Shown here in pieces: positions 1,380-19,459 of a stretch of 22,552 bases of DNA (position 1 is its first letter; each line of letters opens with the position of its first letter). Under the pieces are notes generated by a model. That model did not search any database and had not been told where the DNA came from. It worked only from the letters and a program-made list of their open reading frames with translations. The stretch covers positions 1 through 22,552 of IMG/VR virus record IMGVR_UViG_3300001683_001896. The stretch is one strand, 5' to 3'. The DNA comes from a virus. The position numbers were made by a program, and so were the translations under genes.

Positions 1380-2669
1380 TTACAAGACCTTACTAGCGTA
1401 TGTTGCAATTGATGAACGCACGCCTCGCTTGAGATGCACATGGGCAGCCAGCTTGCTCGATTTGAACTTTTCCACAACGATGGCCAGTCCATTGGATCGT
1501 TTATCAAGATAAGCAGTGTCTATCTGATCTGTGTCCCCCATGAGCACAATTTTGGAGTTCTCACCTAGACGAGTGATGATGGTCTTCAGCTCATGAATGG
1601 TAGCATTTTGTGCCTCATCGACGATCACATAGGAGTCATTGAAAGATCGCCCTCTGATGTAGGTCAGTGGAGCGATCTCGATCTGCCCCTTATCTATCAT
1701 CAATTCGAAATAGACCTTATCCTTGAAGTGGTGTCTAAAGTTATCCAACAGCGGGGACATCCACGGATCCATCTTATCCCGGATATCGCCTGGAAGATAG
1801 CCCAAATCCCTTCCCACCGGTTGAATGCTGCGGGTCACGACAATTCGCTCATATACCTGTGCGTGCAGAGCCTCAATACCAGACATCAACGCTAAAAAAG
1901 TCTTGCCTGAACCCGCCAGACCTGTTAGGGTCACTAGGGGGATGTCCTGCTCTCTCAGCGCGTGTAAAGCAAATCGTTGCTCCTTATTTCGAGGTTTGAC
2001 CTCTGATATGACCCCATGGGGATCCTTATCAAATAGTTCAATTTTACCTGATTTATAGGTGCCCAGTGCAGACTTGTTCGGTGTTCCCTTACACACAACG
2101 TAGGTGTTCTCGTGAAGATTTTCTTTCGTGTCTAGGGTTCCCTGCTCAAACAAAGTGTCGATCTCATTATCGCTTATCTCTAGACAGTGTGCGCCAGTAA
2201 ATGATACAGCGTCCAAGGCGATATAATCTCGATAGTAATCCTCTGCCTCTAGACCTAGAGCGTCACACTTGACCCTAAGGTTTATGTCTTTGGTGATAAC
2301 TTTGACTGTTTGGTCCGGATTATTTTTTTGACATTCAAGAGCTGCTGCAATAACCACATTATCGCCACGCTTTGGATCCAAGTGATTTTCAAGATCCAAG
2401 GGTTGTATTTTAATCAGCACTTTAATTGTTTGGTCTTGATTTTTTAGATAAACCCCTTCTTGCAAACTGCCCAGGGATCTTAATTCATCTAGATATCGAT
2501 TAACATAACGAGCCGATTCACCCAGTAGGCCCGGCTTCTCCTTGAATCGATCAAGCTCATCCAGCACAATAAGCGGTAGAATGACATCATTTCCAGGAAA
2601 AGAGTGCACAGATTCTTTATCATAGAGCAGTACTGATGTGTCTAAGACTAGATATTTTCTTTTATTCAT
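1380..2669 (-). CDS. phoH: PhoH-family ATPase with N-terminal PIN domain (PhoH2/YlaK type)
   Basis: 429 residues, close to the usual length of bacterial PIN-PhoH proteins. The N-terminal PIN nuclease-like domain (about 1-150) has the expected acidic positions: D10 in VLDTS, the DELD cluster at 37-40, D103 and D128. The C-terminal PhoH ATPase has Walker A GLAGSGKT at 250-257 and Walker B VIVDEAQN at 348-355, followed by the MGDTDQID sensor region at 377-384. The family is known for ATP-driven RNA unwinding coupled to the PIN RNase in bacteria; its phage role is unsettled, and PhoH genes are common in marine phages. It sits between the virion genes and the FtsZ-like gene and is divergent from the small sigma-like gene at 2726, with 56 bases between their starts. 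No key residue appears to be missing. Confidence 0.93.
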   Translation of the reverse strand: MNKRKYLVLDTSVLLYDKESVHSFPGNDVILPLIVLDELDRFKEKPGLLGESARYVNRYLDELRSLGSLQEGVYLKNQDQTIKVLIKIQPLDLENHLDPKRGDNVVIAAALECQKNNPDQTVKVITKDINLRVKCDALGLEAEDYYRDYIALDAVSFTGAHCLEISDNEIDTLFEQGTLDTKENLHENTYVVCKGTPNKSALGTYKSGKIELFDKDPHGVISEVKPRNKEQRFALHALREQDIPLVTLTGLAGSGKTFLALMSGIEALHAQVYERIVVTRSIQPVGRDLGYLPGDIRDKMDPWMSPLLDNFRHHFKDKVYFELMIDKGQIEIAPLTYIRGRSFNDSYVIVDEAQNATIHELKTIITRLGENSKIVLMGDTDQIDTAYLDKRSNGLAIVVEKFKSSKLAAHVHLKRGVRSSIATYASKVL

Positions 2670-2725: not shown

Positions 2726-2998
2726 GTGTGTGGTTTGAAAGAAAAAACGTGTTATCAAATAATTTTCGAAACTGATCAGGCTTGTGATGTTGATACCTGT
2801 CGACATTTCTTAGGTTCAGAAAGAGATTTGAACTGTTCAATAATTGCGGCGAAATCCGGCCCAAAGACTCTGCAAGAGATCGGTGATTACTATGGAATCT
2901 CTCGAATGAGAGTTTGTCAAATAGAGAAGTCAATCCTAAAAAAATTACGGATTGATAATGAAGGAATAAAATTATTCGACTCCCTAGCCGGCGAGTAG
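2726..2998 (+). CDS. Small sigma-70 region 4-like helix-turn-helix protein
   Basis: 90 residues on the plus strand, against the trend of the neighbours. Residues 48-75 (TLQEIGDYYGISRMRVCQIE and the following KSILKKLR) match the sigma-70 region 4.2 pattern LxEIGxxxGVSRxRVxQIExxALxKLR, which recognises the -35 promoter element. Region 2 is absent, so it could be a stand-alone region 4, a transcription activator or a sigma-appropriator. The frame is closed by a stop at 2717, so the start must be GTG 2726 (or TTG 2735). An ATG at 2724 lies in another frame and stops at once. AAGGGAAG about 8-11 bases upstream is a plausible ribosome binding site. The 3' end overlaps the convergent FtsZ-like gene by 15 bases. 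An antisense open frame at 2691-3002 is a shadow. Fold assignment is fairly sure; function is inference. Confidence 0.72.
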   Translation: MCGLKEKTCYQIIFETDQACDVDTCRHFLGSERDLNCSIIAAKSGPKTLQEIGDYYGISRMRVCQIEKSILKKLRIDNEGIKLFDSLAGE

Positions 2999-4060
2999 GC
3001 ATAGAACTATTAAGCCAGGAATTCTCTCTTTTACATACACACCTGAAAAAAGTGCCTCTGTTCGACCTCCGACATAACTGAATGCAGCCTCTAAATTTTT
3101 ACTAACTCTGGGATCCTCTGCCATAGTTGATGTCACAATGAGAAGTAAAGCACCCCTTTGACTTCTAGTACTAGGTGGTGGACACGGAGAAGCATTAATA
3201 CACCCCTGAAGGACGGCAACACCCAGATCAGTCCGATCGGTGTCCCTTATTACGGTACTCCCCAAGACGATTCGATCAGGTGTACTTAGACATTTCTCTA
3301 AATCTTTAGAATCAAATGCCTGGATATCCGTGTGGGTTGCGGCCAATTTCAATACCTGAGACAGCATCTTAGCAAAATTAGTATTGGCAACCGGATAGAG
3401 GTTCAGCATGCCAACCTTGTTTCTAAGAAGCTGTAACTGCCTTTCATTATCGATCACAATATGTGGATGATTAGATACATCCTCTAAGAGAGCTTGATAA
3501 TTTCGCTCTATAGTGGTATTGAGTAATTCCTGCGCGCTTGGCCTAGAAATAATGTATACTACCTTGCCGGAAGCTCCCACAGCTTTAAGGTGGCGTGTGA
3601 GGGCATCATGAAGGACCGAACATGCGCTACCCGTGCCACCGCCGCCTCCGGCGAGAACGAAGAGCCAGTCAGTCGCGCCGATTCTGGCTCGAACTGCATC
3701 CTCCACTAGGGCACTGTTTTCGCCAAGAATTTTCTTACCGAGATCCACATCCTTTCCGACGCCGTCGGCACCGGGTACTAAGAGGAAATTAGGTGGATCA
3801 ACTCCGTCCGGTTGGTCTTTGATTGTCGTGTTCACTAGCAGTGTCTTGGCAAAGCCCAGGTCTAGAAAGGCTTTGGCCATCTTTCCCCCTCCACCGCCGA
3901 CGCCTATGAAAGCACATTTTATTGCGCTCTCTGCTGTATTCTCAGGCAGAGCCTGTTCATCCGGGACGTCGTCAGTCTCAGAGTACGATCCCGCAAAATC
4001 AAATTCATCATCCAGAGATTCTGGATTTATATAGAGATCATCCTTATTTTCTTCACTCAT
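2984..4060 (-). CDS. FtsZ/tubulin-superfamily GTPase with acidic N-terminal extension
   Basis: 358 residues. About 45 acidic residues (MSEENKDDLYINPESLDDEF onward) precede a tubulin/FtsZ GTPase core. Seen in order: glycine loop IGVGGGGGK (52-60), the tubulin signature GGGGGTGSA (138-146), IVIDNERQL around 201-209, and a stretch AFDSKDL at 248-254. The last lines up with the FtsZ T7 loop NxDFADV, keeping both acidic residues (D250, D253) but replacing the Asn. The family polymerises with GTP into filaments; jumbo phages use tubulins such as PhuZ to position the phage nucleus or move capsids. This one looks closer to FtsZ than to PhuZ, but that needs a tree. It lies downstream of the tmRNA in the same direction and its 3' end overlaps the plus-strand sigma-like gene. 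Start: ATG at 4058-4060, with GAGGAG a few bases upstream. Confidence 0.82.
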   Translation of the reverse strand: MSEENKDDLYINPESLDDEFDFAGSYSETDDVPDEQALPENTAESAIKCAFIGVGGGGGKMAKAFLDLGFAKTLLVNTTIKDQPDGVDPPNFLLVPGADGVGKDVDLGKKILGENSALVEDAVRARIGATDWLFVLAGGGGGTGSACSVLHDALTRHLKAVGASGKVVYIISRPSAQELLNTTIERNYQALLEDVSNHPHIVIDNERQLQLLRNKVGMLNLYPVANTNFAKMLSQVLKLAATHTDIQAFDSKDLEKCLSTPDRIVLGSTVIRDTDRTDLGVAVLQGCINASPCPPPSTRSQRGALLLIVTSTMAEDPRVSKNLEAAFSYVGGRTEALFSGVYVKERIPGLIVLCLLAG

Positions 4061-4098: not shown

Positions 4099-4504
4099 TG
4101 GTGGAGGCGCCGGGAGTCGAACCCGGGTCCAAAGCACACTTAATATTGTGTCATTCACAAGGTTAGTCAATCTTTTTTTAGAGCAGAAAAGGAAGACCAA
4201 AAACTGTTTCATCCCCGCTACCAGAGCTTTCTTTTTAGCCAGAAGAAAGAAACTGGTTTTTGCTAATTTTGGGTAATAAGGCAATTAGCAACCCCAGATG
4301 CTTAATTTACGTAAGCAACAGCCTCCGAGGCCTCGTCCAAGAGTTGTACGGGCACGTAGCCAGTACGATCCTTCAACGAGAACCACGGAGTCGCCAAAGA
4401 TACATCGTTGGCAATCATTTTTTTAAGCGTTTTTACAGAGACCATCGCTTCCCTCTGCCTTGCACACAATATCTCACATGCCCTGTCGAAGCCATTTCGC
4501 CCCC
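4099..4504 (-). ncRNA. ssrA: One-piece tmRNA (SsrA)
   Basis: Transfer-messenger RNA that rescues stalled ribosomes. Read on the minus strand, the 5' end GGGGGCG (4504-4498) pairs over 7 bp, with one G-U, with CGCCTCC before the encoded CCA end at 4099. The T-arm GGGTTCGACTCCCGG-like segment sits near 4107-4128. The 5' D-like segment GGCTTCGACAGGG is present. A long P2 helix joins ATATTGTGTG with ACACAATAT near the 3' side. Pseudoknot 1 is clear (CAGAG/CTCTG and AAGCG/CGCTT), followed by an A-rich run and the resume context ATGATTGCCAACGAT. After the tag, pseudoknot 2 (GGG/CCC with TTGCTAATT/AATTAGCAA) and pseudoknot 3 (CCAG/CTGG with CTTTCTT/AAGAAAG) are visible. The 5' end is only 4 bases after the stop of the histone-like gene, so it is probably cut from a longer message. 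Partner SmpB is not in the window. Confidence 0.95.
4302..4412 (-). other. tmRNA tag-peptide reading frame, 36 codons
   Basis: The resume codon is read as GCC at 4412-4410, giving a tag that begins ANDVSLATPW and ends EASEAVAYVN before TAA at 4304-4302. AND is the classic tag start. The stop lies in a 6-bp hairpin TGCTTA/TAAGCA, the usual helix 5 position. At 36 residues it is longer than ordinary tags, and it lacks the usual small hydrophobic end (LAA, VAA). The alternative frames stop early or do not start with AND. Confidence 0.65.
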
Positions 4505-4714: not shown

Positions 4715-4954
4715 CTAAACTAAGATTGTCGTTGTGTTAGTTACGTTCTCTTTCTCAAGAGAGGTATCAATAATTTCTGTGATTTTTTTCATTGCGTCGA
4801 TGTTCTCTAATTCTAGAGAAAGCAACTTGATGAGTGTGTGTAGTTGACTTTGATTCACACCAAAATTTAGAATCTCATGTATAATTTCCCTACACTGGGC
4901 AGATTCCAATATAATTTTATCCTCTCTACACGCTGTAAACTTTTTGATTCCCAT
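4715..4954 (-). CDS. Hypothetical small helical protein
   Basis: 79 residues, MGIKKFTACREDKIILESAQ onward. It is predicted to be mostly alpha-helical, with a Leu-rich segment around residues 40-60 and a Thr-rich tail. No known motif is seen. Its ATG overlaps the TAA of the upstream zinc-ribbon-like gene (TAATG), so the two are translationally coupled. The family is unknown; real-gene status rests on coupling and on filling the space between two supported genes. Confidence 0.55.
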   Translation of the reverse strand: MGIKKFTACREDKIILESAQCREIIHEILNFGVNQSQLHTLIKLLSLELENIDAMKKITEIIDTSLEKENVTNTTTILV

Positions 4955-5481
4955 TACGTTTCTGTCCTTATAATGTATGATTCCACTCTAAGGCGGTCAC
5001 TCGCTAAAAATTTGACTAGCTTTCCTTGAATTATTCCGTCTATTTCCTCACGTGTGAGGATGATATGATCATTCCAATTCTTATTTTCTAGAATAAATTG
5101 TGCATGTTCAAAATCTGCAATATCTTTCTGGTAAGTCAATAAAAGATCGTATAAGTCATTAGGCAGCGCAAACTTGAAGTCATCTACAGTCATCTGAGTT
5201 ACTACTTCATCTCGTCCTGTGACAATTTCCGATTTGCAGATATCAATGACCTTGTGCACAGCACCACAATTATTGCACGAGGCAAACTTGGGAATTATGG
5301 TATCACTTTCCTCATCAAGAATAGAGAAGACAACAAATTGATGAAATGTAGGATCTTCTGAATTCCGATACTGCGGAAGGATGCAGTGACACTGTATCAG
5401 ATGTTTGGTGCCTGACTTCAAAGCGTTCGTCTTGCTAGCGTGTACCCAGAACCCTATCAATGAGCCGATCTGTCTGCTCAT
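4954..5481 (-). CDS. Conserved-looking phage protein with CxC...CxxC zinc-ribbon pattern
   Basis: 175 residues when started at ATG 5481. A GTG at 5526 would add 15 residues but would deepen the overlap with the preceding gene from 47 to 92 bases. Cysteines C31-H-C33 and C69-N-N-C72 form a likely zinc site, bracketing the segment ILPQYRNSEDPTFHQFVVF. The C-terminal half is acidic and helical. No enzyme motif is visible. The function is unknown. The overlap with the 91-residue gene and the TAATG junction with the next gene place it in a tightly packed block leading to the histone-like gene and tmRNA. Confidence 0.65.
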   Translation of the reverse strand: MSRQIGSLIGFWVHASKTNALKSGTKHLIQCHCILPQYRNSEDPTFHQFVVFSILDEESDTIIPKFASCNNCGAVHKVIDICKSEIVTGRDEVVTQMTVDDFKFALPNDLYDLLLTYQKDIADFEHAQFILENKNWNDHIILTREEIDGIIQGKLVKFLASDRLRVESYIIRTET

Positions 5482-5710
5482 GTAAGATTTCTTGTACTTT
5501 TGTGGATAGATTAATTGCCGCTTCACGATCTAAGCGCTTCGTCGCGACGAGCTCAGATAAGAATAACTCTGAAAACTTTTGGTTCAAAATATCTCTGGTG
5601 TCTAAGATATTTCTACCAATTTGTGCCTGTGACGTTACGCCTGGGGTTTCTATTTTTAGGGTCTTAGACATCACTTTAGTGGCCTTTTTCTTAACATTTA
5701 TCTTACTCAT
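5435..5710 (-). CDS. Hypothetical small basic protein
   Basis: 91 residues with a Lys-rich N-terminus (MSKINVKKKATKVMSKTLKI) and a helical C-terminal half (LSTKVQEILHEQTDRLIDRV). GAGGA upstream of ATG 5708-5710 supports the start. It is the first gene after a 49-base gap from the chaperonin-like gene, and its 3' end overlaps the next gene by at least 47 bases in a different frame. No family is recognised. It may be DNA- or partner-binding given its charge, but nothing in the sequence shows this. Confidence 0.55.
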   Translation of the reverse strand: MSKINVKKKATKVMSKTLKIETPGVTSQAQIGRNILDTRDILNQKFSELFLSELVATKRLDREAAINLSTKVQEILHEQTDRLIDRVLGTR

Positions 5711-5759: not shown

Positions 5760-6965
5760 TTAGAGGCTTAGAATAATATTGCCAATATTCCCCATGACAG
5801 TTCGGCACGACTCCGCAGCTCGAATTCCCACGAGCTCAGCAGTATAAGACACATGGGGCTTGAAATTGCCGTTTCTGTCAGCAACTGATTCAATCAAAGA
5901 CGTATTACAAATACCGGATCTGGCCACCCCAATACATGCCTTCTGGGCTATTTTACATCGATCTCTAATTACACCCATTAGGTTAGCGAGTCTTTTCGGC
6001 ACTTTTATTTCCACATGTTGTGATGCACCTGCTTCGTTTTGGAATGATGCACCCTGACGTGAGAAAAGAACATACTCGTGTTTGGTAAAATCGTCTAACA
6101 CAGTATTTTTTAGAGTCTCCCCCGAGCCCGGCGACACACACTTGATGTTCATCTTTCGACAGGCATCTAGGGCATCTGATTCTGATGCTGATTGTTTAGA
6201 AGGAGTTACTTCCCACTCTCTAACAGTGAATGGAATTGCTCTTAATGTTCCAGTGCGCCAATTTTTCTCGAGTGTTGTTACAACATCTGGCCCAAAACCT
6301 CTAGCGCATATGATAGAACTACACTTTTCTGAGGCTATCTCCTGGAGAAGATGGTCTACTTCTCCCACTGCCTCTATGATTCCGTCAACTGCGATAATTA
6401 CTGGATTGTCTAGACGCTGTATTCGGCCGGAGCTATCAAATAGTGGGTGTATCTCACCTAGAATCTCTTTAGTCGTGTATGCCTGAACAACAAAGTCATT
6501 GACGTGTGTGAAGCTAAAATTCAAACTAGCTGACATACCGCCGGCATAAATTATTTGGGACATTAATCTGTGAATGAGACCCTTCCCTAAAAAATAGTGC
6601 AGTGTATCATCGATACTTCCTGGGTCTGCTCTGTTCATCAGAGTATTTCTCGTTACTAGCGTTTTGTCAATCTTGTGTTTATGCGCAAGTAGATATGCAC
6701 AGATGATCCCTGCGCCTACCTGCTTATTCTCTGCAGATAGGATTGCGTTAATAATGATGTTTCGTATGGTGAGATCTAAAGAATCTTTCTGCGACCACTC
6801 AGATAACACGCGTATCAAATCTGCGGGCCTGGCTGTGGTTACTCGAGTGCCGTAGTTTAGAATAAGCGCGTCAGTATGTAATTTGAAGAGCATAGAGGAT
6901 AGCTCTTTAAGCAGGTATGCGTACCTCGCTCTTATGATATTTTCACTAACAACGGTAGTGTGCAC
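5760..6965 (-). CDS. Divergent, shortened GroEL/Cpn60-like protein without the ATPase motif
   Basis: 401 residues from GTG 6965, which begins 4 bases after the upstream stop. A longer frame back to 7130 is rejected because its first 55 codons overlap the membrane-protein gene in another frame. Residues 187-310 follow the GroEL apical domain in order: NPVIIAVDGIIEAV, LLQEIASEKCSSIICA, DVVTTLEKN-RTGTLRAIPF, then LDACRKMNIKCVSPGSGETL and LDDFTKHEYVLFSRQGA, matching GroEL PFILLADKKI through VVINKDTT. GVARSG (346-351) and the final RAAESCRTVMGNIGNIILS resemble the return to the equatorial domain. Where GroEL has GDGTTT, this has QVGAGII (82-88), so ATP hydrolysis is probably lost, and the chain is about 145 residues shorter than GroEL. 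It is the last gene of the PrkA-module block. Homology is fairly convincing by order of motifs; function is unknown. Confidence 0.55.
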   Translation of the reverse strand: MHTTVVSENIIRARYAYLLKELSSMLFKLHTDALILNYGTRVTTARPADLIRVLSEWSQKDSLDLTIRNIIINAILSAENKQVGAGIICAYLLAHKHKIDKTLVTRNTLMNRADPGSIDDTLHYFLGKGLIHRLMSQIIYAGGMSASLNFSFTHVNDFVVQAYTTKEILGEIHPLFDSSGRIQRLDNPVIIAVDGIIEAVGEVDHLLQEIASEKCSSIICARGFGPDVVTTLEKNWRTGTLRAIPFTVREWEVTPSKQSASESDALDACRKMNIKCVSPGSGETLKNTVLDDFTKHEYVLFSRQGASFQNEAGASQHVEIKVPKRLANLMGVIRDRCKIAQKACIGVARSGICNTSLIESVADRNGNFKPHVSYTAELVGIRAAESCRTVMGNIGNIILSL

Positions 6966-6969: not shown

Positions 6970-7239
6970 TTAGTGGAATGTTTTTGGCTTGCCTGGTTTC
7001 TTAAAGATCTCACTGAACGCCTGGGCCAAATCTTCTGAAGCTGTTCCCACCTCTTTGAACAGAGCCTGTTTAGCTTCCTCTTCCTGTGCTTTCTTCTGTA
7101 TACGAATAATTGATCTGCACACAGCACCAAGGACAGCGATCACACAAAGAGTAATACCGATCGCTGTACTATCATGCCCATAAAGTAGTGCGCCGCATAC
7201 TAGGGATAATTCTGGAAACCCAAATTCGACGCGTTCCAT
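6970..7239 (-). CDS. Small single-pass membrane protein in the PrkA block
   Basis: 89 residues. One hydrophobic helix spans about residues 25-46 (STAIGITLCVIAVLGAVC), preceded by a moderately hydrophobic segment at 8-20, and followed by a charged helical tail (RIQKKAQEEEAKQALFKEVG) of possible coiled-coil character. The ATG overlaps the stop of PrkA (TAATG) and the stop is 4 bases before the chaperonin-like start, so it is embedded in the operon. The likely topology is a membrane anchor with a cytoplasmic C-terminal tail. It could tether the kinase module to the membrane; that is a guess from position. No family is recognised. Confidence 0.68.
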   Translation of the reverse strand: MERVEFGFPELSLVCGALLYGHDSTAIGITLCVIAVLGAVCRSIIRIQKKAQEEEAKQALFKEVGTASEDLAQAFSEIFKKPGKPKTFH

Positions 7240-9173
7240 TAGCTATCCCGCCATAGATTATTAGAGGCGTATGCGAGGATCTCCTCTGCGCTCTCGCCTG
7301 TGTATCCATAGTCATCGATCATTGTCTGTATCATATCGCTATACTTCTTCTGTTGCTCATCATCTCTAGTCTTAGACTTAGTTATAATTCTCGCCATGGA
7401 CTTTACAGAGGTGATCAAGTAAGACTCGATAGCTTCCTTGAGAGGCTCATAGCTGGTGTAATTGACTTTCTCACCGCGACGCATCTTGGCGAACATATAG
7501 GCAGTCACATCGCTCCTGAAGCCGTCCTTAGCAGAACCAGTTATCCCTATCTGCTCCTCAACGGATCTAAGAAACTTTTCATCTGGCTCCCTTTCCTCTT
7601 TGGTCAACTTGTCTTTTAGCTTCTGATGAGTCGTGTAGGCTTCCGCATTGTCCAGATACGTGTCGAAAAGTGATTGTGCCTGTTCTTCATAGGCACTTAC
7701 AAATGCCTTTGCCACTTCATTCTCTAGAATGTTCAAGTACTCTTCTCGTACAATTTTTTGGATGATCTCTAAACAGTGCTGCTTAAACTCCTCGTCGGCG
7801 ATCTGGTCCTTTATCATCCGGGTCAGTGATTCAATGACAGAGATAGGAGTTATCATGTTTTTGTCTGAGTTAGACAGGGCTCCATCTAGAGCCTTGGCGA
7901 TGAATCGTGTGGATATCCCTGACATACCCTCTCTACTAGTCTCTTCCCGTAGATCCTCTATGTCGATCCTCTTTACTCTTCCCTTTTCAATGATATCCTC
8001 TCCATTGTAGATCTTCATCTTGGTGATGAGATCACACTTGCCGGAGGGCTTAAGGCGAGACATGATTGAGAACATCGAAGCTACTCTAAGCGTGTGAGGT
8101 GCGATGTGAGACGTGAAATCAGATTGTCCCAATAATTTTTCATAAATTTTGACTTCCTGATCTAGCTCTAAACAGTAGGGCACGTTGATCTTCACCACCC
8201 GGTCCAAAATGGCCTCGTTGGTGTGTTCACTTTGGAAACGATTCCACTCTGACTCATTACAGTGCGCAATAATAACTCCATCAAAGTAGAGCATGTCAGA
8301 TTTACCAGGGGAGGGGATCCTCTTTTCCTGTGTAGCAGTAATAATGGTATGCAAGAACTCTATCTCATTCTTGAAAATTTCTACTAGCTCAACAATTCCA
8401 CGATTGCCAACATTAAATGCACCATTGAGAGACAGCGCTCTCGGATCGTCCTCTGCATAACGATCTAGCTTGGAAATATCTACACTTCCAATGAGCACGG
8501 ATGTATCTTGACTATTTGCGTCCATCGGTGGAACTGATGCGATCCCCCTTCGTCCACGCTGGGAAAAGCTAGATTCCTCAACGGGATAATCTTCATACTT
8601 TCCGTCCAGCTCATTCATCAACCGATATTGAACAACGGGTGATATGTCGCCCTCAATGGAGACACCTAATTTCTTAGAAAATTTGTCCCTGAGCGATCTG
8701 GGTACCAACTGTAGGGGCTCACCTCTTTGGGGATCCTTGGCTAAGTGATAATAGGTCTGACCGCTTAGAACACACTTGATGTGTTCTGTGAGTGCAGACT
8801 TGCCGGCACCGACCGGGCCCATTAGAAGCAAAACCTGTTTACTCTCTTCTCCCTTGTGCGCAGCCGATTTTAGGTACTGAACGAGCTTAGAGACTACTCT
8901 CTCCATGCCAAAGAACTCATCCTTGAAGTAATCATAGATCTTCATGGACTCATTGCTGAAGATCTTCTTTTTTCTGGGGTCTGAGTCTGGCATTGTACTC
9001 ACACCGTACTTGATTACACTCTCATAAAGTCGCTTGTGAGCCGGCTTAACAATATCCGGATGCTTCTTCACATGCTCAATGTAGTCCATGAAAGTCCCAG
9101 AGAATCTCTTTTGAGAAGCGCCGACCTTTCTTTGGGCCTGAATATCCTTTAAGAATTCGTCACTAATACTCAT
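7239..9173 (-). CDS. prkA: PrkA/YeaG-family AAA+ serine protein kinase
   Basis: 644 residues, full length for the family. An N-terminal AAA+ ATPase has Walker A GPVGAGKS (119-126), a typical SFSQRGRRG segment (202-210), the family stretch NRGIVELVEIFKNEIEFLH (257-275), and DGVIIAHCNESEW (298-310) with DRVVKINVPYCL (324-335). A helical C-terminal PrkA domain follows. PrkA/YeaG are known as stress and sporulation kinases working with YeaH/YhbH and SpoVR/YcgB; an ATP-dependent protease activity has also been reported for Bacillus PrkA. Its neighbours upstream are exactly these partners. The gap from SpoVR is 39 bases, the only notable gap in the module, and the stop overlaps the start of the membrane-protein gene. 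No truncation or missing core motif is seen. Substrate in the infected cell is unknown. Confidence 0.96.
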   Translation of the reverse strand: MSISDEFLKDIQAQRKVGASQKRFSGTFMDYIEHVKKHPDIVKPAHKRLYESVIKYGVSTMPDSDPRKKKIFSNESMKIYDYFKDEFFGMERVVSKLVQYLKSAAHKGEESKQVLLLMGPVGAGKSALTEHIKCVLSGQTYYHLAKDPQRGEPLQLVPRSLRDKFSKKLGVSIEGDISPVVQYRLMNELDGKYEDYPVEESSFSQRGRRGIASVPPMDANSQDTSVLIGSVDISKLDRYAEDDPRALSLNGAFNVGNRGIVELVEIFKNEIEFLHTIITATQEKRIPSPGKSDMLYFDGVIIAHCNESEWNRFQSEHTNEAILDRVVKINVPYCLELDQEVKIYEKLLGQSDFTSHIAPHTLRVASMFSIMSRLKPSGKCDLITKMKIYNGEDIIEKGRVKRIDIEDLREETSREGMSGISTRFIAKALDGALSNSDKNMITPISVIESLTRMIKDQIADEEFKQHCLEIIQKIVREEYLNILENEVAKAFVSAYEEQAQSLFDTYLDNAEAYTTHQKLKDKLTKEEREPDEKFLRSVEEQIGITGSAKDGFRSDVTAYMFAKMRRGEKVNYTSYEPLKEAIESYLITSVKSMARIITKSKTRDDEQQKKYSDMIQTMIDDYGYTGESAEEILAYASNNLWRDS

Positions 9174-9212
9174 GCGTATATTCTACTCCAAATTGTGGGG
9201 ATGTGTACCAAG

Positions 9213-10520
9213 CTAGACCTCCCAAAGTTCTTCTTCAATGATTGTAAATAATTTCGACTCTTTGTTCCACAAAGTGCTCACGTGTCCCACCACTGCCTCG
9301 GCATGATTTAACTCTAGATCTCGACCATCATGCTCGTGACGTAGTACTAACAAATCATCCTCTACTTCATCAATATAAATAACCGGGATAGAATTTGTTC
9401 CAACGTTTTTTAGGAGATCCAGCTTAACAGATTCCCATCCGTCCTCATCTGAGATCTCATCAATCGTCACACCCTCTTTCTTACCCTTATCAGAGTATGT
9501 GAATAAGCCTAGTTCTTCGCATAAGTCACGTGTAAGATATTGTCTAAGAAATGAGACATCATGGCTAGCTTCCCTCGCGATGAAGCACTCCTCAATTCCC
9601 TTTGTCTCCTCAATGTGTTGAAATAGTTTGAATCCTAGATAGTAGGGATTCAGGCCGCCCACATGAGGTCGCACAACTTGATTGTGTGTTTTTAGGAAGG
9701 GCAGGTGCCATTCTTCTGGTAGATTCAACTCATGAAGTAATGTATAGTGCCAATAGCAAGCCCAGCCTTCATTCATGATCTTGGTTTGAATCTGGGGCAT
9801 AAAATATTTGGACTCGTCTCTCACGATTTCAATAATATCCCGTTTCCAACTAGGCATGTCTACTGAGTACTCTGTGATGAATCCTAGGATATCGTAATCC
9901 GGTTCTAGAGGTAACCTAGAAATATCAAAATTCACGTATTCCTCTTTTGTATCATTCTTGATGAGTTTACTATATTTTTTAACTAGCTCACTCTTAGATA
10001 ACCTCTTTTGACCGTATCTATGAGTTTGAAATTGAAGTGCGTGTGCAGCATCCAGCATTTCATCCACCTCATCAATACCGATGGTGGGATCTTCGACATA
10101 TTTTTGGATCCTCTTCTTCGCACTACGCATGCTTCCAACCACAGCGCCTGGTCGAGTGTCTTTGAACATTCGATTATTTCTAAAAAAGTCAGAATGGCCT
10201 ACGCAATGGGCCATGATCAAGATCTGTAAATAGACGGGATTCTCTCGCATGAGATAGGCAATTGCAGGATCAGAATTGATTATCAACTCGTAGGGGAGAC
10301 CCTCTGCACCAGCATTGTACATTGCGTGTGTGCGTTCGAATGCCTTTCCATAGGACCAGTGTCCGTAGTGGGTAGGCATGCCATGATATGATGTGTGTCC
10401 AATCATTGAGAAATAATCGCACATTTCATAGTTGATTGGGAACCAAGTCAATCCCTTTTTGGATGCGAGCTCACATATCCTATCATCCCACTCTTCCAAA
10501 AGTTCGAATGTCCAATCCAT
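9213..10520 (-). CDS. spoVR: SpoVR/YcgB family protein
   Basis: 435 residues from ATG 10520, chosen because it overlaps the YeaH stop (TAATG). A longer frame to 10580 lies inside YeaH. Family blocks are clear: YEMCDYFSMIGHTSYHGMPT then HYGHWSYGKAFERT (31-64), YELIINSDPAIAYLMREN (77-94), AHCVGHSDFFRNNRMF (104-119) and MNEGWACYWHYTLL (249-262), with many conserved His, Glu and Trp. B. subtilis SpoVR acts in spore cortex formation and E. coli YcgB is a stationary-phase protein; the biochemical activity is not settled, though the His/Glu-rich blocks suggest metal binding. Slightly shorter than the bacterial proteins (about 470-510) but with all core blocks. Second protein of the PrkA module. Confidence 0.95.
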   Translation of the reverse strand: MDWTFELLEEWDDRICELASKKGLTWFPINYEMCDYFSMIGHTSYHGMPTHYGHWSYGKAFERTHAMYNAGAEGLPYELIINSDPAIAYLMRENPVYLQILIMAHCVGHSDFFRNNRMFKDTRPGAVVGSMRSAKKRIQKYVEDPTIGIDEVDEMLDAAHALQFQTHRYGQKRLSKSELVKKYSKLIKNDTKEEYVNFDISRLPLEPDYDILGFITEYSVDMPSWKRDIIEIVRDESKYFMPQIQTKIMNEGWACYWHYTLLHELNLPEEWHLPFLKTHNQVVRPHVGGLNPYYLGFKLFQHIEETKGIEECFIAREASHDVSFLRQYLTRDLCEELGLFTYSDKGKKEGVTIDEISDEDGWESVKLDLLKNVGTNSIPVIYIDEVEDDLLVLRHEHDGRDLELNHAEAVVGHVSTLWNKESKLFTIIEEELWEV

Positions 10521-11707
10521 TAGTAGTTGTCTCCTAGAGCGGTGACCTTTCCGCCGAATAATTTTGTGAAGGCCAGCCAAATGTCTGACTTATCATTAAT
10601 GGATACACACTTCATCTTTCGATTAGCGAGGCGTTGATACACATTAGATAATTTGGCCTCCTCAAACCAGCCCTCCTGTGTATCCTTGGGCTCAATCTCA
10701 CAATAACCAAATAACTGTGAAAAATCCCGAATCTGCTCTGCTAGAGTTAATGTCCGGCCGGTATCATCAGGCCAATTATCACCGTCAGAGCACTGAAAGC
10801 AGTAGATATTCCAGCTCTGTGGATGATATCGAGAATTCACTATATCACACACTAGTGAGAGGCCTGATGATACTATTGTGCCTCCCGAGTTGCCCCTAGT
10901 AAAGAACTGTTCCTCATTAACCTCACTGGCGGACATATCATGGGATACAAAGACGATCTCAGTGTGCTCATACTTTGATCTGATGAAGTGGTATAGCAGA
11001 AAATAGAAGGCCCTCGCCAAGAATTTCTTGTTCCTGGTCATCGACCCAGAGATATCCATTACGAAAAAAATCACCGCGCTGGAACTCGGTTTCATTGACT
11101 TCTTATAGTGTCTATAGACTAAGTCATGTTCATGGAATGGAAAGGTCTCTTCATCATCAATTTTCTCGTGCCGATCGGTTGCCTTTTTTCTCTTTATCCT
11201 CTCTATCGCTGTCTTCTTTTTATCTAAACGAGGTTTGATCCCCGTTGCTCGATAGCCTTTCCTCTTATTCTTCTCTGACACGATTTTTTTAAGTGTCTTC
11301 TTTTCCATGTCCGGAAGTTCCAGGTCATCAAAGAGATAATGAGCTAGCTCTTCTAGCGTTATCTCAACCTCATAATATTCCTCTCCCGGATCGGACCCCG
11401 GCTTGTGTCCTTGATTTGACTTTTGTCCCTGCCCTTTTCCTATTTTCTGGCCACGCTGGATATCAGCCCCGGGTGCTGATCCCGCCTGCTTGTTGGTCTT
11501 GTTGTCTCCGTATACGAATCTATATTCTTTGATGCCCCGGACAGGTATCTTGATCTTCTTTTTGCCAGATTGGCCGATGATCGACTCATCGGCGACGATG
11601 TGATGAACGCCCTCCTTGATAGCACGTTCAATCTTCTTTTTGTGTCGCCGCCGATCTGATGCCGACCGATCAGCAACAGACTTATGCTCACGAAAGATGG
11701 AGGACAT
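10520..11707 (-). CDS. yeaH: DUF444/YeaH (YhbH) von Willebrand factor A-like protein
   Basis: 395 residues. The start MSSIFREHKSVADRSASDRR and the following RHKKKIERAIKEG match the conserved YeaH/YhbH N-terminus, which is followed by a Gly/Gln-rich linker (80-108). The C-terminal half is a VWA-like domain with the MIDAS metal site DISGSM (218-223), T277 in GGT, and SDGDN (307-311). YeaH partners PrkA/YeaG in Escherichia coli and YhbH partners PrkA in Bacillus. The MIDAS is intact, so divalent-metal-dependent protein binding is expected. The ATG abuts the TAG of the Nudix gene with no gap and the stop overlaps SpoVR, so all are made from one message. Length is near the usual 390-430. Confidence 0.96.
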   Translation of the reverse strand: MSSIFREHKSVADRSASDRRRHKKKIERAIKEGVHHIVADESIIGQSGKKKIKIPVRGIKEYRFVYGDNKTNKQAGSAPGADIQRGQKIGKGQGQKSNQGHKPGSDPGEEYYEVEITLEELAHYLFDDLELPDMEKKTLKKIVSEKNKRKGYRATGIKPRLDKKKTAIERIKRKKATDRHEKIDDEETFPFHEHDLVYRHYKKSMKPSSSAVIFFVMDISGSMTRNKKFLARAFYFLLYHFIRSKYEHTEIVFVSHDMSASEVNEEQFFTRGNSGGTIVSSGLSLVCDIVNSRYHPQSWNIYCFQCSDGDNWPDDTGRTLTLAEQIRDFSQLFGYCEIEPKDTQEGWFEEAKLSNVYQRLANRKMKCVSINDKSDIWLAFTKLFGGKVTALGDNY

Positions 11708-12127
11708 CTAGTGGACCCTCGTCATTTGTCTCACCCAACTAATAGTCGGCCGAAGATATGGATGTAGTTTATGCTCAGCTTGATCCATGGTAAGCCATTT
11801 AGCAGCGTGGTGCTCGTACTCTCCGGTCTCTGGATTGCGTTGTATGGACGGTTCTTGCGTCGTGACCGCTATATACAGCGTCACGTTTCTGGCTGCAGTT
11901 GTCTGCAGACCCCATCTGAAATCTAAATCACTGATCCCGGCCTCCTCCTCAGTCTCTCTCATCGCGGCTACGAGGCTAGTTTCAAAGGGCTCAACCCCTC
12001 CCTTAGGTAGATCATAACTGCCATAGACACGAAGGCCTAAGACTAGATAGTCTCCATCATGCTCTTTGAGGACTATAATACCGGCTCGTCTCTTCATAGT
12101 TTGGCTCTTAGAGGCGCCTTGAGGCAT
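11708..12127 (-). CDS. Nudix hydrolase (small diadenosine-polyphosphate/NTP pyrophosphatase type)
   Basis: 139 residues. The Nudix box GX5EX7REUXEEXGU is complete at 43-65 (GGVEPFETSLVAAMRETEEE then AGI), with the metal-binding REXXEE glutamates. The preceding GSYDLPKGG is typical of small Ap4A-hydrolase-like Nudix proteins, as is EHHAAKWLT near 104-112. Substrate (Ap4A, NDP-sugar, RNA cap-like or oxidised nucleotide) cannot be read from sequence. The start is supported by GAGGAG a few bases upstream of ATG 12125-12127. It is the first gene of the tightly joined Nudix-YeaH-SpoVR-PrkA block, which may link alarmone or nucleotide signals to the kinase module (inference). Confidence 0.92.
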   Translation of the reverse strand: MPQGASKSQTMKRRAGIIVLKEHDGDYLVLGLRVYGSYDLPKGGVEPFETSLVAAMRETEEEAGISDLDFRWGLQTTAARNVTLYIAVTTQEPSIQRNPETGEYEHHAAKWLTMDQAEHKLHPYLRPTISWVRQMTRVH

Positions 12128-12156: not shown

Positions 12157-13773
12157 TCATCGAAAACATTCGTGAAAGTCGCTGGGAAACAGTTGTTTGT
12201 TGTTCGCATAAAAGCGCTCCCAGTCCGAATCTAGAATATATGTGACCGCTGAATCTGTGTCTGATCTTACCGATCTGCCCATTGCCTGTATTACCGTCTT
12301 GGAAGTCTGGAATGGGTACCACCACTTCCACTTATGCATCCTCTTTTTGACCAGCTTATCGCCCAAATATGGATAGGGTACTTTGCAGATCACTTGAAAT
12401 CTACTAGCATCACCCTCCAAGTCGATACCCTCAGTCATAGACGGGGATATCAGCACAGTGGGTGAAGTACCTGTCATATGTTTTCTAATGATCTGATCTC
12501 TATTATCCGGGGAGGCGAGGAGTAATCTCCGAGATTTGATATTTTTTTTGAGATAATTTGCAATCTTATAGGAGTGGGTGTGAATTATCCCCTTCTCCTT
12601 TTTGTGTGCTTCTAATATCTTGCGAACAGCGTTTGCCAAGATAGGGAGGCTATGATCAATTTCCCTGGCCGTCATTTTTCCAATCGGCACGAACAGAGTA
12701 GGTCTATTCTCAATCGGAAAGGGTGAGGGGATGGAGATCGCAGCAGCGTTGCTCTTATTGACACCCACCATCTCTAGAAATCTGTCTGTCTGGATCAAGG
12801 TGGCAGACATGAACAGCACGTGATATCCCATCCGGAAGAGGTACTGATTAGCGAATTGGGATATGTCGATGGGTTTGAATGATAATTTTCTAAGATCTCT
12901 AACATCACTCTGGAGAGATTCGAAGACCCAATTCTCTTTAGTGTGCAGCCTAAGGAAATCCTTGAGGCGCTGATGGTGTCCTTCCATCATTCGAAGCTGT
13001 CGAGAGAGAGAGATAAACTTATCCAACTTTGTTTTGAGTTGGGTGTACTTCTCCATCATATGATTTACATGTGCTAGGTGTGAGGTAAGCTTTGGAAAAT
13101 ATACAGTCTGAATCCAATCTAGCGCCTGATGGTGAGTCCCTATCTCAGGCATATCGAGTTTGAGCACACTCTTGGCGAATCGTTCTGTCACTGCGATCTC
13201 GATAAATTTAGAGAGTTCAGTCTCGACATTGTGTGCCTCATCGATCACCAGGAGCTTTCTAGGCTTGATCTTCCCGTTGTAGTTGCTCTCTGTCAACAGG
13301 TAGGGAAAATTAGTGACTGACATGGGAGCGTCCATGAAAGACTGTTTAGCACTTCGGTAGACACAATTGAAGGTACAGGTATTCCAAAATTTGGTACCTT
13401 TCTCCTCCAATTTAAGTTCAGTCAGACTGTCAGAACACTTATTGAATCGTTTATATTGGCACTGGTAATTACTGGCGCTCTTGATGGATCTCATTCCCAA
13501 ATTGGCGAAGTCCCGCTCATATTGGTCCTGTAATAACTTTTGGGTGGTGGTGAAGATCGCGCCGTTTTCGTAACCATCATGCACCTGATTATCTGCTGAC
13601 AGGGCCCTCGCGATCGTCACTGCAATCGCGCTCTTTCCCACTCCGGTTCCTGCCTCTAGGGCGAAGAATCTCTTTCCCTGGGAGAATGCCTCGAGGATCT
13701 GATCAATTGCTGCTGTCTGTTCCTTTCTTGGCGTCTGGAGCGGGAAGAATTTTTGCCATTGTTGCTTAGACAC
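12157..13773 (-). CDS. DinG/XPD-type superfamily 2 helicase with iron-sulphur cluster
   Basis: 538 residues. Walker A AGTGVGKS (41-48), DEAH box (178-181) in LLVIDEAHN, and motif VI QAMGRSVRS (496-504) define a helicase of the DinG/XPD group. Four cysteines between motifs I and II, C105, C113, C133 and C137, fit the 4Fe-4S cluster used for 5'-3' unwinding. MSATLI near 325 and SPSMTEGIDLEGD in the second RecA half are also typical. Start is GTG 13773 with AGGGG upstream; an ATG two bases upstream lies in another frame. It follows ClpP by 9 bases and precedes the Nudix gene by 29. Likely role: unwinding during replication, recombination or removal of R-loops. Confidence 0.92.
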   Translation of the reverse strand: MSKQQWQKFFPLQTPRKEQTAAIDQILEAFSQGKRFFALEAGTGVGKSAIAVTIARALSADNQVHDGYENGAIFTTTQKLLQDQYERDFANLGMRSIKSASNYQCQYKRFNKCSDSLTELKLEEKGTKFWNTCTFNCVYRSAKQSFMDAPMSVTNFPYLLTESNYNGKIKPRKLLVIDEAHNVETELSKFIEIAVTERFAKSVLKLDMPEIGTHHQALDWIQTVYFPKLTSHLAHVNHMMEKYTQLKTKLDKFISLSRQLRMMEGHHQRLKDFLRLHTKENWVFESLQSDVRDLRKLSFKPIDISQFANQYLFRMGYHVLFMSATLIQTDRFLEMVGVNKSNAAAISIPSPFPIENRPTLFVPIGKMTAREIDHSLPILANAVRKILEAHKKEKGIIHTHSYKIANYLKKNIKSRRLLLASPDNRDQIIRKHMTGTSPTVLISPSMTEGIDLEGDASRFQVICKVPYPYLGDKLVKKRMHKWKWWYPFQTSKTVIQAMGRSVRSDTDSAVTYILDSDWERFYANNKQLFPSDFHECFR

Positions 13774-13782: not shown

Positions 13783-14433
13783 TCATTTGGAAATTATATC
13801 CACTAGGCCTAACTCTAGACACTTGTCACTGTCTAACCAGAACTCGTGTCCCAAGAGTTCATCCAGTGTCTCCTCATTCATCTTAGTGTTCTCAAGATAT
13901 ATCTGTCGTATTTTCTCTGTGAGGACTTTTTGATTCTCGACCTCATCCATGAAATCGTCTAGCTTGCCCGCCCACTCTAACTGTTGTTGGTGCAACAGCA
14001 TGAAGCTGTTCTTGCTAATTGATCTCCTCTTTCCTGCAATAGAGATCATCGTTGCAGCGCTAGCTGCAGAACCATCAACGTAAGTGTGAACTGCGGTCTT
14101 ACAGTTCTTGACGGTGTCATATATCGCCAGTCCGGCAAAAAGAGATCCACCTGGACTGTGTATGTGTAGGTGGATCGGTACCGGCTTACAATCAAGTCTG
14201 CTACTCAGATACTGCATTTCTATGTCTAGACGTCTCAACAGTCGATTAAGCTCGAGTGCCTCGTGATGATCCACGTGGCAGTAGAAAAATATTCTATTCT
14301 CTTCTACTTCAATGCCTCTGGGTACCCGATCTGAAGATTGCTGGGGGATCAGCGAGTCATCTATTTGTAAATCGCTTCCAGACCCGGGCGAGGGTGGAAA
14401 ATTGTCATCATTTAATCTGTATCGCTGTCTCAT
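13783..14433 (-). CDS. clpP: ClpP-like serine protease with N-terminal extension
   Basis: 216 residues. A polar, proline-rich extension of about 40 residues precedes a ClpP fold. SPGGSLFAGLAIYD (93-106) is the usual SPGGs block, the nucleophile S125 lies in GSAAS, and the general base H148 in MLLHQQ. At the position of the catalytic Asp (before FW/FM) this protein appears to have E197 (GHEFWLDSDK), a possible substitution. In cells ClpP degrades proteins fed by ClpX/ClpA; phage ClpP-like proteins may also act as prohead proteases. The context here (helicase, unknown gene, tmRNA elsewhere) does not decide between them. The ATG overlaps the upstream stop (ATGA), implying translational coupling. 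Confidence 0.88.
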   Translation of the reverse strand: MRQRYRLNDDNFPPSPGSGSDLQIDDSLIPQQSSDRVPRGIEVEENRIFFYCHVDHHEALELNRLLRRLDIEMQYLSSRLDCKPVPIHLHIHSPGGSLFAGLAIYDTVKNCKTAVHTYVDGSAASAATMISIAGKRRSISKNSFMLLHQQQLEWAGKLDDFMDEVENQKVLTEKIRQIYLENTKMNEETLDELLGHEFWLDSDKCLELGLVDIISK

Positions 14434-14927: not shown

Positions 14928-15743
14928 ATGAGAAATACAAAGATCCGCAAAATACCGCTGATAATGAGCCTAGCAAGTGCCGTACTTTTATCCCTGAGCT
15001 GTATGACAGTTCCAAAGAATATTTCTAAAAATTGGGTACCCTCTGTCAAGCCCAGAACATCTGCCCCTGTAGATGCTTTTGCGTTGGTAGCTGTTAAATA
15101 CACATCGTATCCCACTGACTGTGAGAGCACAGAAGAGGATTTTAATTGTAAAGAATTACTTTCTGAGCTGCCAGAGATCATTTCATTTGGCACAGGATCT
15201 GGCATATTAGTAGATTCTGAAATAGGGGCTGTTGTTATAACAGCTGCACATGTGTGTGAAAATGACACACCCAGTTCATTCGAACATGATGACATATCCA
15301 TAACGATCTCCTCTATAGTAAAAATTACTTTAGAAGTACCCACTAAGGGCAATTATGAGGCGTCCATTATAAAAATGGATAAAGAGAAGGACTTGTGCCT
15401 GCTTAAGCCTTCGAAGGTCTTTACTCACCCAGTACCTCTCTCTAAGCACAGTCCTAAGCTTGGAGATATTGTCTACTCCATATCTGCTCCTTATGGGATC
15501 GTCGGATCGGACTTGGCGTTAATTTTTAGAGGTTTTTATTCCGGAAAGGACACTCTCGACGATGACAGGGAAGTTAGATTTTATACAGTCCCAGCGCGCC
15601 CCGGATCTAGTGGAGGTCCCATTTTCAATAAAAATTGGGAACTAATCGGGATCATTCATACTGCGTTCTCAACGATAGAAAATGTGGGGATAGGAGCAGG
15701 GTTGGAAGATGTCAGGACATTCCTGTATCCATCCAGTGAGTGA
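14928..15743 (+). CDS. Exported trypsin-like (S1) serine protease, possible lipoprotein
   Basis: 271 residues on the plus strand. The N-terminus has a basic start (MRNTKIRK), a hydrophobic core (residues 9-24) and C25 in LLSLSC, which resembles a weak lipobox, so secretion is likely and lipid anchoring possible. The chymotrypsin-fold triad is visible: H108 in ITAAHVC, D155 in KDLCLLK and S228 in GSSGGPIF, as in Trypsin_2/HtrA-like peptidases. No PDZ domain follows. A phage-encoded exported protease could act in the periplasm or outer membrane, for lysis, exclusion of other phages or processing of envelope proteins; all inference. The start is supported by AAGGA about 12 bases upstream. The 3' end meets the convergent gene at 15746 with a 2-base gap. 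Confidence 0.85.
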   Translation: MRNTKIRKIPLIMSLASAVLLSLSCMTVPKNISKNWVPSVKPRTSAPVDAFALVAVKYTSYPTDCESTEEDFNCKELLSELPEIISFGTGSGILVDSEIGAVVITAAHVCENDTPSSFEHDDISITISSIVKITLEVPTKGNYEASIIKMDKEKDLCLLKPSKVFTHPVPLSKHSPKLGDIVYSISAPYGIVGSDLALIFRGFYSGKDTLDDDREVRFYTVPARPGSSGGPIFNKNWELIGIIHTAFSTIENVGIGAGLEDVRTFLYPSSE

Positions 15744-17145: not shown

Positions 17146-17709
17146 ATGCCAACGTCACGTGCATTCAAGATAATAACCCACCTATCAGAAGCTGCTTCCT
17201 TAGAAGAAGAACTCTTTATTGAAAAAGACACAGAATATACTACGATGTTTAAACGAGATTTTTCGGATGAAGAGCAGTATATTCGAAAAATGGGAATCCT
17301 AGATAATCAACCTAAGCCCGACACAAGTACTAGTTCATCAAATATTAAAGAGACTCTTTTAAAGTCGCTTTATAAAAAGCTAGCACATAAAACGCACCCA
17401 GACATATATCCGGACAGTGTTGACGTATTTAGAAAAATTCAGGAAGCATATGAAAAAAAGGATGGTCCGGGTCTACTCACTGCTTCGTTGAATCATGGAA
17501 TAGAAATAGAAGTAGAAGCCGACGATATCAAAGATATGATGTCAGATATTAGTAGACGCCGGGCACAAATAGAAAATAGAAAAAATACCTACTGCTGGGT
17601 GTGGGGTGAATCTGATAAAAGCCGGCAGACAAAAAAATATATTAGAGCCGCTTTACAAATAGACGAAGATAAATTTCAAGAGTGGCTGTCACTAAAGAAG
17701 CCGGCCTGA
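17146..17709 (+). CDS. J-domain protein (DnaJ-like co-chaperone)
   Basis: 187 residues on the plus strand. Residues 69-105 hold the J-domain core: helix II-like KETLLKSLYKKLAHKTHPD with the diagnostic HPD at 84-86, then VDVFRKIQEAYEKKD as helix III. It lacks Gly/Phe-rich and zinc-finger regions, so it is a class III-type J protein. A polar N-terminal part (1-68) and a helical C-terminal domain ending AALQIDEDKFQEWLSLKKPA flank the J core. J proteins stimulate Hsp70 (DnaK); a phage one would recruit host DnaK to a phage target. GGT a few bases upstream of the ATG is a weak ribosome binding site. It is transcribed alone, opposite to its neighbours, and meets the metallopeptidase gene tail to tail. 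Confidence 0.75.
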   Translation: MPTSRAFKIITHLSEAASLEEELFIEKDTEYTTMFKRDFSDEEQYIRKMGILDNQPKPDTSTSSSNIKETLLKSLYKKLAHKTHPDIYPDSVDVFRKIQEAYEKKDGPGLLTASLNHGIEIEVEADDIKDMMSDISRRRAQIENRKNTYCWVWGESDKSRQTKKYIRAALQIDEDKFQEWLSLKKPA

Positions 17710-19258: not shown

Positions 19259-19459
19259 TTAAGGGATCCGCACTTCGTGAATATTCACAGCGCAAGGCCC
19301 TTTCCTGCCTTCGCCAATCTTGTACTGGACTCGATCGCCCTCAGTGGCAGTTGAGGCCTGCAATTCGGAAGCATGAAAGAAGAGATCCTCTCCTTCATCT
19401 TGAATAATAAACCCGAAACGCTTGTCCGCATTAAAAAACTTAACTTTACCTTCACTCAT
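19259..19459 (-). CDS. CspA-family cold-shock protein
   Basis: 66 residues from ATG 19459, the family's usual length; a longer frame to 19516 runs back into the hairpin repeat and is rejected. The OB-fold RNA-binding motifs are clear: KVKFFNADKRFGFI with RNP1 at about 12-19 and DLFFHAS (RNP2, 25-31). GEGRKGPCAVNI matches the C-terminal strand that normally reads GxxGPxAxNV. Such proteins bind single-stranded RNA and DNA and prevent RNA structure. In phage it may aid translation of phage messages in cold water (inference). It lies between two copies of the hairpin element. Confidence 0.93.
   Translation of the reverse strand: MSEGKVKFFNADKRFGFIIQDEGEDLFFHASELQASTATEGDRVQYKIGEGRKGPCAVNIHEVRIP

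Follow-up and report, generated by a model that had tools for sequence, protein, structure and literature searches.

The window analysed here comprises all 22,552 bases of the IMG/VR virus record IMGVR_UViG_3300001683_001896, itself a fragment of a larger genome. Its minus strand carries a run of four genes (positions 7239 to 12,127) that encode, in order, a Nudix hydrolase, a YhbH/YeaH (DUF444) protein of the vWA type, a SpoVR/YcgB-family protein and a PrkA/YeaG-family AAA+ protein. The last three, hereafter the trio, belong to families that are widespread in bacteria and whose molecular job is unsettled. A preliminary description, made from the sequence alone, had proposed the four genes, and all of them are confirmed by Pfam (Table 1), the trio exceeding the cut-offs of 25 for both PrkA domains (PF08298, PF06798), 27 for PF04293 and 27 for PF04285. 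The junctions are likewise as described: Nudix and YhbH abut exactly (TAGATG), YhbH and SpoVR overlap (TAATG), and a gap of 39 bases separates SpoVR from PrkA. The start of SpoVR was placed at the ATG at 10520, which forms this overlap with the YhbH stop, while the mechanical open reading frame (ORF) reaches a TTG at 10580. The core motifs are intact, namely the Walker A motif GPVGAGKS of PrkA, the metal-ion-dependent adhesion site (MIDAS) DISGSM of YhbH and the Nudix box GGVEPFETSLVAAMRETEEEAGI. The run extends past position 7239, where a further TAATG leads into a small ORF of transmembrane (TM) type and then into a chaperonin-like gene (5760 to about 6965). This anatomy is, with near certainty, real and placed as given. 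The trio misses the NCBIfam equivalog cut-offs for YeaG (PRK15455, 399 against 576 bits), YcgB (PRK11767, 285 against 679) and YhbH (TIGR02877, 397 against 468), and by that standard its proteins belong to the three families without being orthologues. The PHROGs already contain all three families, without assigned function (22605, 35217, 19072). A solved relative of the window PrkA is present in the PDB (9xip, E 2e-91), and PDB sequence searches with SpoVR and with YhbH returned no relative.

Conservation and carriers of the trio

IMG/VR was scanned with the window PrkA as query, which retrieved at least 178 viral contigs. The best 80 of these 178, with a PrkA 67–81% identical to that of the window at the best segment, were kept, and counts out of 81 refer to these relatives plus the window. 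PrkA, being the query, occurs in 81/81, SpoVR in 79/81 and YhbH in 77/81, and the order YhbH>SpoVR>PrkA is kept without exception, with median gaps of −4 and 22 bases inside the trio. The three-gene unit recurs in 76–79 of the 81 viral contigs, far above chance, which bears out the earlier claim of a complete set with recurring linkage. Two neighbourhood types, labelled marine and freshwater as names and not as checked habitats, surround it. In the marine type, genes for a DinG helicase, a cytidylyltransferase and Nudix lie upstream, and those for the TM protein, the chaperonin-like protein, two conserved proteins (u190 and u79), tmRNA, an FtsZ-like protein, PhoH2 and fibres lie downstream; the flanking genes of the freshwater type are wholly unlike these. 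Nothing argues more strongly for joint action of the three genes than their staying together while the flanks are rearranged. An ORF family similar in size to the small TM-type protein follows PrkA in 30 loci. Nudix stands directly upstream of YhbH in 26/71 loci, common but not obligatory, so that the idea of a module led by a Nudix gene holds for the window and fails as a general rule; nothing was found linking the Nudix protein to Ap4A or alarmone levels, as had been suggested. Among the viral copies, the Walker A motif of PrkA is kept in 81/81, the DxSxS of YhbH in 75/75 and the HxxxH of SpoVR in 77/77. The median ratio of nonsynonymous to synonymous substitution (dN/dS) lies at 0.036–0.045 across the trio genes (0.036 for PrkA over 30 viral pairs), rough values obtained by the NG86 method from pairs 85–98.5% identical, many of them with high dS. 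Intact motifs and low dN/dS indicate functional proteins. YhbH, SpoVR and PrkA thus form an operon-like unit under strong purifying selection in jumbo phages.

The preliminary description had called the source a probable phage. Eleven of the largest relative contigs (132–361 kb) were searched whole, and a T4-type Gp23 major capsid protein (MCP) was found in 10/11 and a terminase in 11/11; relatives of the window with T4-type MCP and TerL reach 298 kb, and one contig of 284 kb with a window-like neighbourhood encodes the T4-type capsid and terminase. This evidence comes from the relatives, the window being a 22.5-kb fragment. The window is from a phage, and the carriers are a large uncultured jumbo-phage group. 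When the whole window was compared with 50,697 phage records by Megablast, and its chaperonin-like protein by tblastn, neither search found a match, so that these records contain no close cultured relative at the DNA level; the capsid protein comes closest, among cultured phages, to those of Flavobacterium phage immuto and Microcystis phage Mel-JY01 (about 43%). PrkA is present in 4/4 contigs of at least 250 kb retrieved via the marine capsid gene, and in 0/14 freshwater capsid-bearing fragments of 62–200 kb, reflecting either their small size or a true absence. The exception without a Gp23 match, a contig of 361,490 bases whose PrkA is 74% identical to that of the window, has its own different terminase and portal. 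At least two phage lineages therefore share this trio clade, implying transfer between unrelated phages.

Could the locus be a piece of bacterial chromosome miscalled as viral, or a set of recent, functionless passenger genes? Some records would suit such an artefact. The gamma/alpha-type IMG/VR set was not counted as phage-borne, because, of the 13 records tested, 6 lacked a terminase match and 2 had only a weak one; Enterobacter phage LAU1, whose record opens with yeaGH, probably a captured host flank, was set aside. Against this stand the relatives of up to 298 kb with T4-type MCP and TerL, and viral copies that form one clade, are 53–58% identical to the nearest bacteria and show a dN/dS of about 0.04. 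The sole "bacterial" match of 71% is on contig NHDW01000006.1 (305,838 bases), from the GTDB bin Methylococcaceae bacterium TMED69, which has the trio neighbourhood and a phage terminase, and is a jumbo phage contig binned with a bacterium. An artefact is scarcely credible.

Evolutionary history and known counterparts

Quick trees were built for PrkA (113 rows), SpoVR (66) and YhbH (83), keeping one viral row in three and picking bacterial rows by their similarity to the window PrkA. In each of them the jumbo-phage copies are one group, with Shimodaira–Hasegawa-like approximate likelihood ratio (SH-aLRT) support of 100 for PrkA, 100 for SpoVR and 99 for YhbH. Their sister in the PrkA and YhbH trees is one bacterial group, of Clostridia, Myxococcota/Deltaproteobacteria, Bdellovibrionota and Flammeovirga, and nearest in the SpoVR tree is the Flammeovirga copy of the same sister set. 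On the simplest reading of the trees, the trio would have been captured jointly and once in the jumbo-phage group. Neither of the outcomes that would have undone the preliminary description, a bacterial contig or unlinked independent acquisitions, was found. Thermus phages, a group of phages of about 635 kb and one 595-kb phage are placed elsewhere in the PrkA tree, and their trios are, judging by these positions, further and separate acquisitions.

The bacterial PrkA-YhbH-SpoVR (YeaG-YeaH-YcgB) system consists of the same three linked families with the same motifs. It differs in its order, which is mostly PrkA>YhbH>SpoVR in the bacterial loci sampled, whereas the phage trio runs YhbH>SpoVR>PrkA, an order seen also in Thermus phages and a few Bacillota, and has chaperonin-type and tmRNA neighbours. 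In the Thermus phages phiYS40, TMA, MN1 and Lalka8 the trio is also phage-borne and in the order found here, but identity is only about 30–33% and the position in the PrkA tree separate; in phiYS40 the genes bear the annotations serine kinase and SpoVR. The Lalka8 trio differs further in lying within the block from portal to terminase, and the stretch read has no annotated chaperonin. The 344-kb Ralstonia jumbo phage RsoM2USA shares PrkA (ORF30) and SpoVR (ORF28) on a jumbo genome, but its best hits are directly proteobacterial (56% to a Vibrio SpoVR), and its authors placed SpoVR under replication and described no module (PMC8504454). The earlier view that carriage of the whole set by a virus would be unusual was thus too strong, since phiYS40, MN1, Lalka8 and several 600-kb phages carry it and spoVR is abundant in viromes of oxygen-minimum zones (PMC8940887).

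MoxR-vWA pairs, known from jumbo phages and the Acidianus two-tailed virus, resemble the present system in joining a viral AAA+ ATPase to a vWA co-factor, and have been linked to virion assembly (PMC7824862). In the window, too, an AAA+ gene and a MIDAS-bearing vWA gene lie in one operon, with only SpoVR between them. The difference is that the AAA domain here is of the PrkA family (PF08298) and comes with a C-terminal domain particular to that family, and that SpoVR adds a third subunit; the MoxR AAA model is not among the Pfam matches of the window. PrkA has an invariant D324-R325 within NEAILDR, which presumably matches what MoxR-like AAA+ proteins have.

In the open-licence PMC papers searched, the trio as a recurrent phage module, its one-clade history and the adjacent pseudo-chaperonin were not found described. 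A study of Pacific oxygen-minimum-zone viromes reported viral spoVR and took it for a sporulation gene (PMC8940887), an interpretation that probably needs revision. In the group retrieved with the PrkA query, spoVR belongs, as one subunit, to the trio of jumbo phages, and the bacterial copies nearest to it occur in non-spore-formers as well as in spore-formers. This bears on whether viral spoVR can be taken as evidence of virus-induced sporulation in the ocean.

Possible functions of the trio and its chaperonin companion

The chaperonin-like gene downstream of the trio, an ORF of 456 amino acids as called, has no Pfam match of its own. Its homology is visible only via a family profile of 28 aligned copies, which matches PDB chaperonins with E 9e-42, and its predicted structure matches GroEL in Foldseek (E 1.4e-19). 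It is homologous to GroEL/Hsp60 over the intermediate and apical regions, but differs in that the C-terminal equatorial part is reduced and the ATPase motifs are all gone: GPKG, GDGTTT and GGG are kept in 0/28 copies, and the protein is therefore not expected to act as an ATP-driven GroEL. Two arrangements exist. In marine genomes this pseudo-chaperonin lies downstream of the trio and a full-length GroEL (530–543 amino acids) is encoded far away, whereas in freshwater genomes the only full-length GroEL detected lies near the trio, on the other side. Altogether, a chaperonin-type gene lies within the locus in 37 of the 42 loci that have at least 8 kb on both sides.

SpoVR keeps the motifs HxxxH, NEGWA and HW, and H54, W55, H105, H109, E251 and other residues are invariant in an alignment of 39 rows. 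Its predicted structure is mostly helical and confident (pLDDT 92.6, pTM 0.90). Foldseek of this model against the PDB gave nothing at E<0.001. The top VIA match is 3o0y, a putative lipoprotein (Z 11.6, root-mean-square deviation 3.3 over 174 residues), followed by the gluzincins 3dwc, an M32 carboxypeptidase (Z 9.8, 3.7, 169 residues), and 5z65, aminopeptidase N (9.7, 3.7, 159), and including the PZ peptidase 3aho (9.3, 4.1, 176); the top rows are mostly gluzincins (M1, M2, M3, M32), a lead and not proof, as helical models can gain such Z from a common arrangement alone. We take the two histidines one helix turn apart, together with the glutamate in NEGWA, to resemble the HExxH...NEGFA of these enzymes. 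The catalytic glutamate of HExxH is replaced in every SpoVR copy matched (HCVGH, HVYGH and similar). SpoVR may have a gluzincin-like fold, a tentative prediction, in which putative metal ligands remain but the catalytic glutamate is lost; we infer a metal-binding pseudo-enzyme.

The reading that we favour, tentatively and at somewhat less than an even chance, is that AAA+/vWA and SpoVR make up a machine that remodels proteins for phage proteostasis and virion building. PrkA, whose kinase label is doubtful, would form an ATP-driven AAA+ ring; YhbH, with its vWA (MIDAS) domain, would be the adaptor recruiting PrkA; and SpoVR would be the subunit that binds metal and, probably without proteolytic activity, the client or a partner. 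In an infected host, the trio would remodel proteins much as MoxR-vWA pairs do and, together with the degenerate GroEL-like partner and the nearby tmRNA, would serve proteostasis and the building of a very large virion late in infection. The chaperonin linkage, which takes two arrangements, supports this reading and suggests assembly because T4-type capsid proteins need GroEL. An assembly role is also supported by Thermus phage Lalka8, in which portal and minor head protein are followed by vWA, SpoVR and PrkA, then by two small ORFs and TerL. In B. anthracis PrkA, kinase activity was not detected and protease activity was negligible, and a scaffold or competitor role has been proposed (PMC13001217), findings that also favour this reading. 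The MoxR-vWA precedent and the D324-R325 of PrkA speak for it too, as do the constancy of the trio between unlike flanks, its intact motifs and low dN/dS, and the single viral clade of each protein. That phages keep exactly these three genes, strongly selected and beside a stripped-down chaperonin, argues that the three products form one machine, and offers a compact system for learning what it does.

Several observations weigh against this reading. In T4-type relatives the trio lies about 65–110 kb from the capsid and terminase genes, outside the head cluster, and the T4-type late promoter TATAAATA hardly occurs near the capsid and terminase genes of ten relatives, where no other common motif was conspicuous. 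Chaperonin linkage in the marine group is partly shared ancestry and not independent. The trio proteins do not bear the MKITKRQLRRIIREE-type N-terminal peptide, a candidate capsid-targeting tag present on other ORFs and discussed below. Finally, work on bacteria links the trio to starvation, stress and sporulation (PMC13001217, PMC10954441).

This last point leads to another explanation, less probable in our judgement but quite possible, namely that the trio acts on host physiology as a metabolic brake or stress programme that keeps slow or starved hosts fit for a long infection. This was the purpose proposed in the preliminary description, which had the phage hold or reprogram starved hosts, and the sporulation reading of viromes is of the same kind. 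YeaG and YeaH together quiesce metabolism in nitrogen-starved E. coli (PMC10954441), B. anthracis without PrkA sporulates and responds to stress less well (PMC13001217), no sporulation-type gene is more abundant than spoVR in the viral populations of oxygen-minimum zones (PMC8940887), and genes for HtrA-like, CspA-like, thioredoxin-like and PhoH2 proteins lie near the trio. However, no host stress regulator travels with it, and the nearest bacterial copies come from spore-formers and non-spore-formers alike, so that sporulation itself is not the shared function. Such a role would also leave the chaperonin linkage and the portal/terminase linkage of Lalka8 unexplained. The neighbourhood as a whole, with its chaperonins, tmRNA and ClpP/HtrA-type proteases, and in Lalka8 the portal and terminase, points to protein handling or assembly at least as much as to host starvation.

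Large phages often carry counter-defence or takeover functions, and the AAA+/vWA machine might take apart or redirect some complex of the host, for instance a defence assembly or a factor associated with the ribosome. PrkA does match the defence AAA protein DolB weakly (E 1.6e-5), but no PADLOC model matches SpoVR or YhbH and the defence library gave no convincing hit. Moreover, the trio appears conserved across a large lineage (4/4 contigs of at least 250 kb), unlike typical counter-defence genes with their fast turnover, and we consider this role improbable.

A narrower form of the favoured protein-remodelling reading is that the trio and the ATPase-dead chaperonin are one dedicated phage machine, an AAA+/vWA/pseudo-metallopeptidase complex coupled to a pseudo-chaperonin, without which giant virions could not be built or quality-controlled. 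We regard this as rather unlikely. If it were true, the bacterial trio would be a general protein-remodelling engine, domesticated several times by phages.

Other genes of the window

The remaining features are listed in Table 1 with those of the trio.

Table 1. Features of the window, by position, with supporting matches or occurrence.
Feature	Position	Strand	Support
PhoH2 (PIN + PhoH)	1380..2669	−	PF02562, PF13638; 49/81 loci
Small protein of sigma-70 region 4 type, encoded opposite to and just ahead of PhoH2	2726-2998	+	
FtsZ/tubulin-like GTPase, GGGGGTGSA motif, adjoins tmRNA	2984..4060	−	TIGR00065 E 1.4e-8; PF00091 E 3.6e-5, below cut-off
Phage tmRNA gene	4099..4504	−	Rfam RF00023 134.5 bits, E 6.6e-53
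Conserved small protein u79	4715..4954	−	45/81 loci
Conserved protein u190, function not assigned	4954..5526	−	downstream of trio in 55/81 loci
Degenerate GroEL-like (pseudo-chaperonin) protein, ~400 amino acids, start uncertain	5760..6965	−	family profile and model
Small TM-type protein, 89 amino acids	6970..7239	−	TAATG overlap with PrkA stop
PrkA/YeaG-family AAA+ protein, 644 amino acids, third of trio	7239..9173	−	PF08298 461 bits; PF06798 273 bits
SpoVR/YcgB-family protein, 435 amino acids, second of trio; candidate pseudo-gluzincin	9213..10520	−	PF04293 405 bits
YhbH/YeaH (DUF444) vWA-type protein, 395 amino acids, first of trio	10520..11707	−	PF04285 379 bits
Nudix hydrolase, 139 amino acids, abuts YhbH; facultative companion	11708..12127	−	PF00293 55 bits
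DinG-like helicase, upstream of trio	12157..13773	−	phrog_2488 374 bits; 34/81 loci
ClpP-fold protease	13783..14433	−	phrog_94 E 6e-42; NF045542 112.5 bits, cut-off 120
HtrA-like protease	14928-15743	+	
Weak DnaJ-like protein	17146-17709	+	
ORF headed by MKITKRQLRRIIREE-type peptide	17736-18233	−	
ORF headed by MKITKRQLRRIIREE-type peptide	18452-19093	−	looser pattern match
CspA-like protein	19259-19516	−	
Thioredoxin/AhpC-like protein	20156-20806	−	
ORF headed by MKITKRQLRRIIREE-type peptide	21227-21907	−	
ORF headed by MKITKRQLRRIIREE-type peptide	21951-22298	−	

The HtrA-like, ClpP-fold, CspA-like, thioredoxin/AhpC-like and weakly DnaJ-like proteins, encoded within about 13 kb, give a neighbourhood of protein-handling or stress type; the best matches of the ClpP-fold protease are phage head-maturation proteases. 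For u190, nothing above threshold was found in Pfam or PHROG. The FtsZ/tubulin-like GTPase family occurs in 16 loci, in the T4-type jumbo lineage, and an antisense ORF family of 87 amino acids, of sigma-70 region 4 type, lies at the matching place in 43 relatives. The tmRNA is syntenic in about 20 marine relatives, whose tags are ordinary and of 12–14 residues (ANDNVEYNYALAA and similar). The window tmRNA has a frame of 36 codons from the resume site, ANDVSLATPWFSLKDRTGYVPVQLLDEASEAVAYVN, without the ALAA degron, and no second tmRNA with this long tag or with the 5' end of the window copy was found in viral contigs.

An N-terminal peptide of the MKITKRQLRRIIREE type is common to 60 ORFs whose bodies belong to 41 unrelated families, in 30 of the 81 jumbo loci; shuffles give an expectation of 0.1, and the peptide has 0 occurrences in 0.92 Mb of bacterial loci and 0 in 1.26 Mb of other viral loci. 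One carrier in the window, at 17736-18233, is an M78/ImmA-like metallopeptidase. The I-x-E end of the peptide resembles, we presume, the T4 capsid-targeting sequence cleaved by gp21, and the peptide may mark proteins that are packaged in the head and then ejected into the host.

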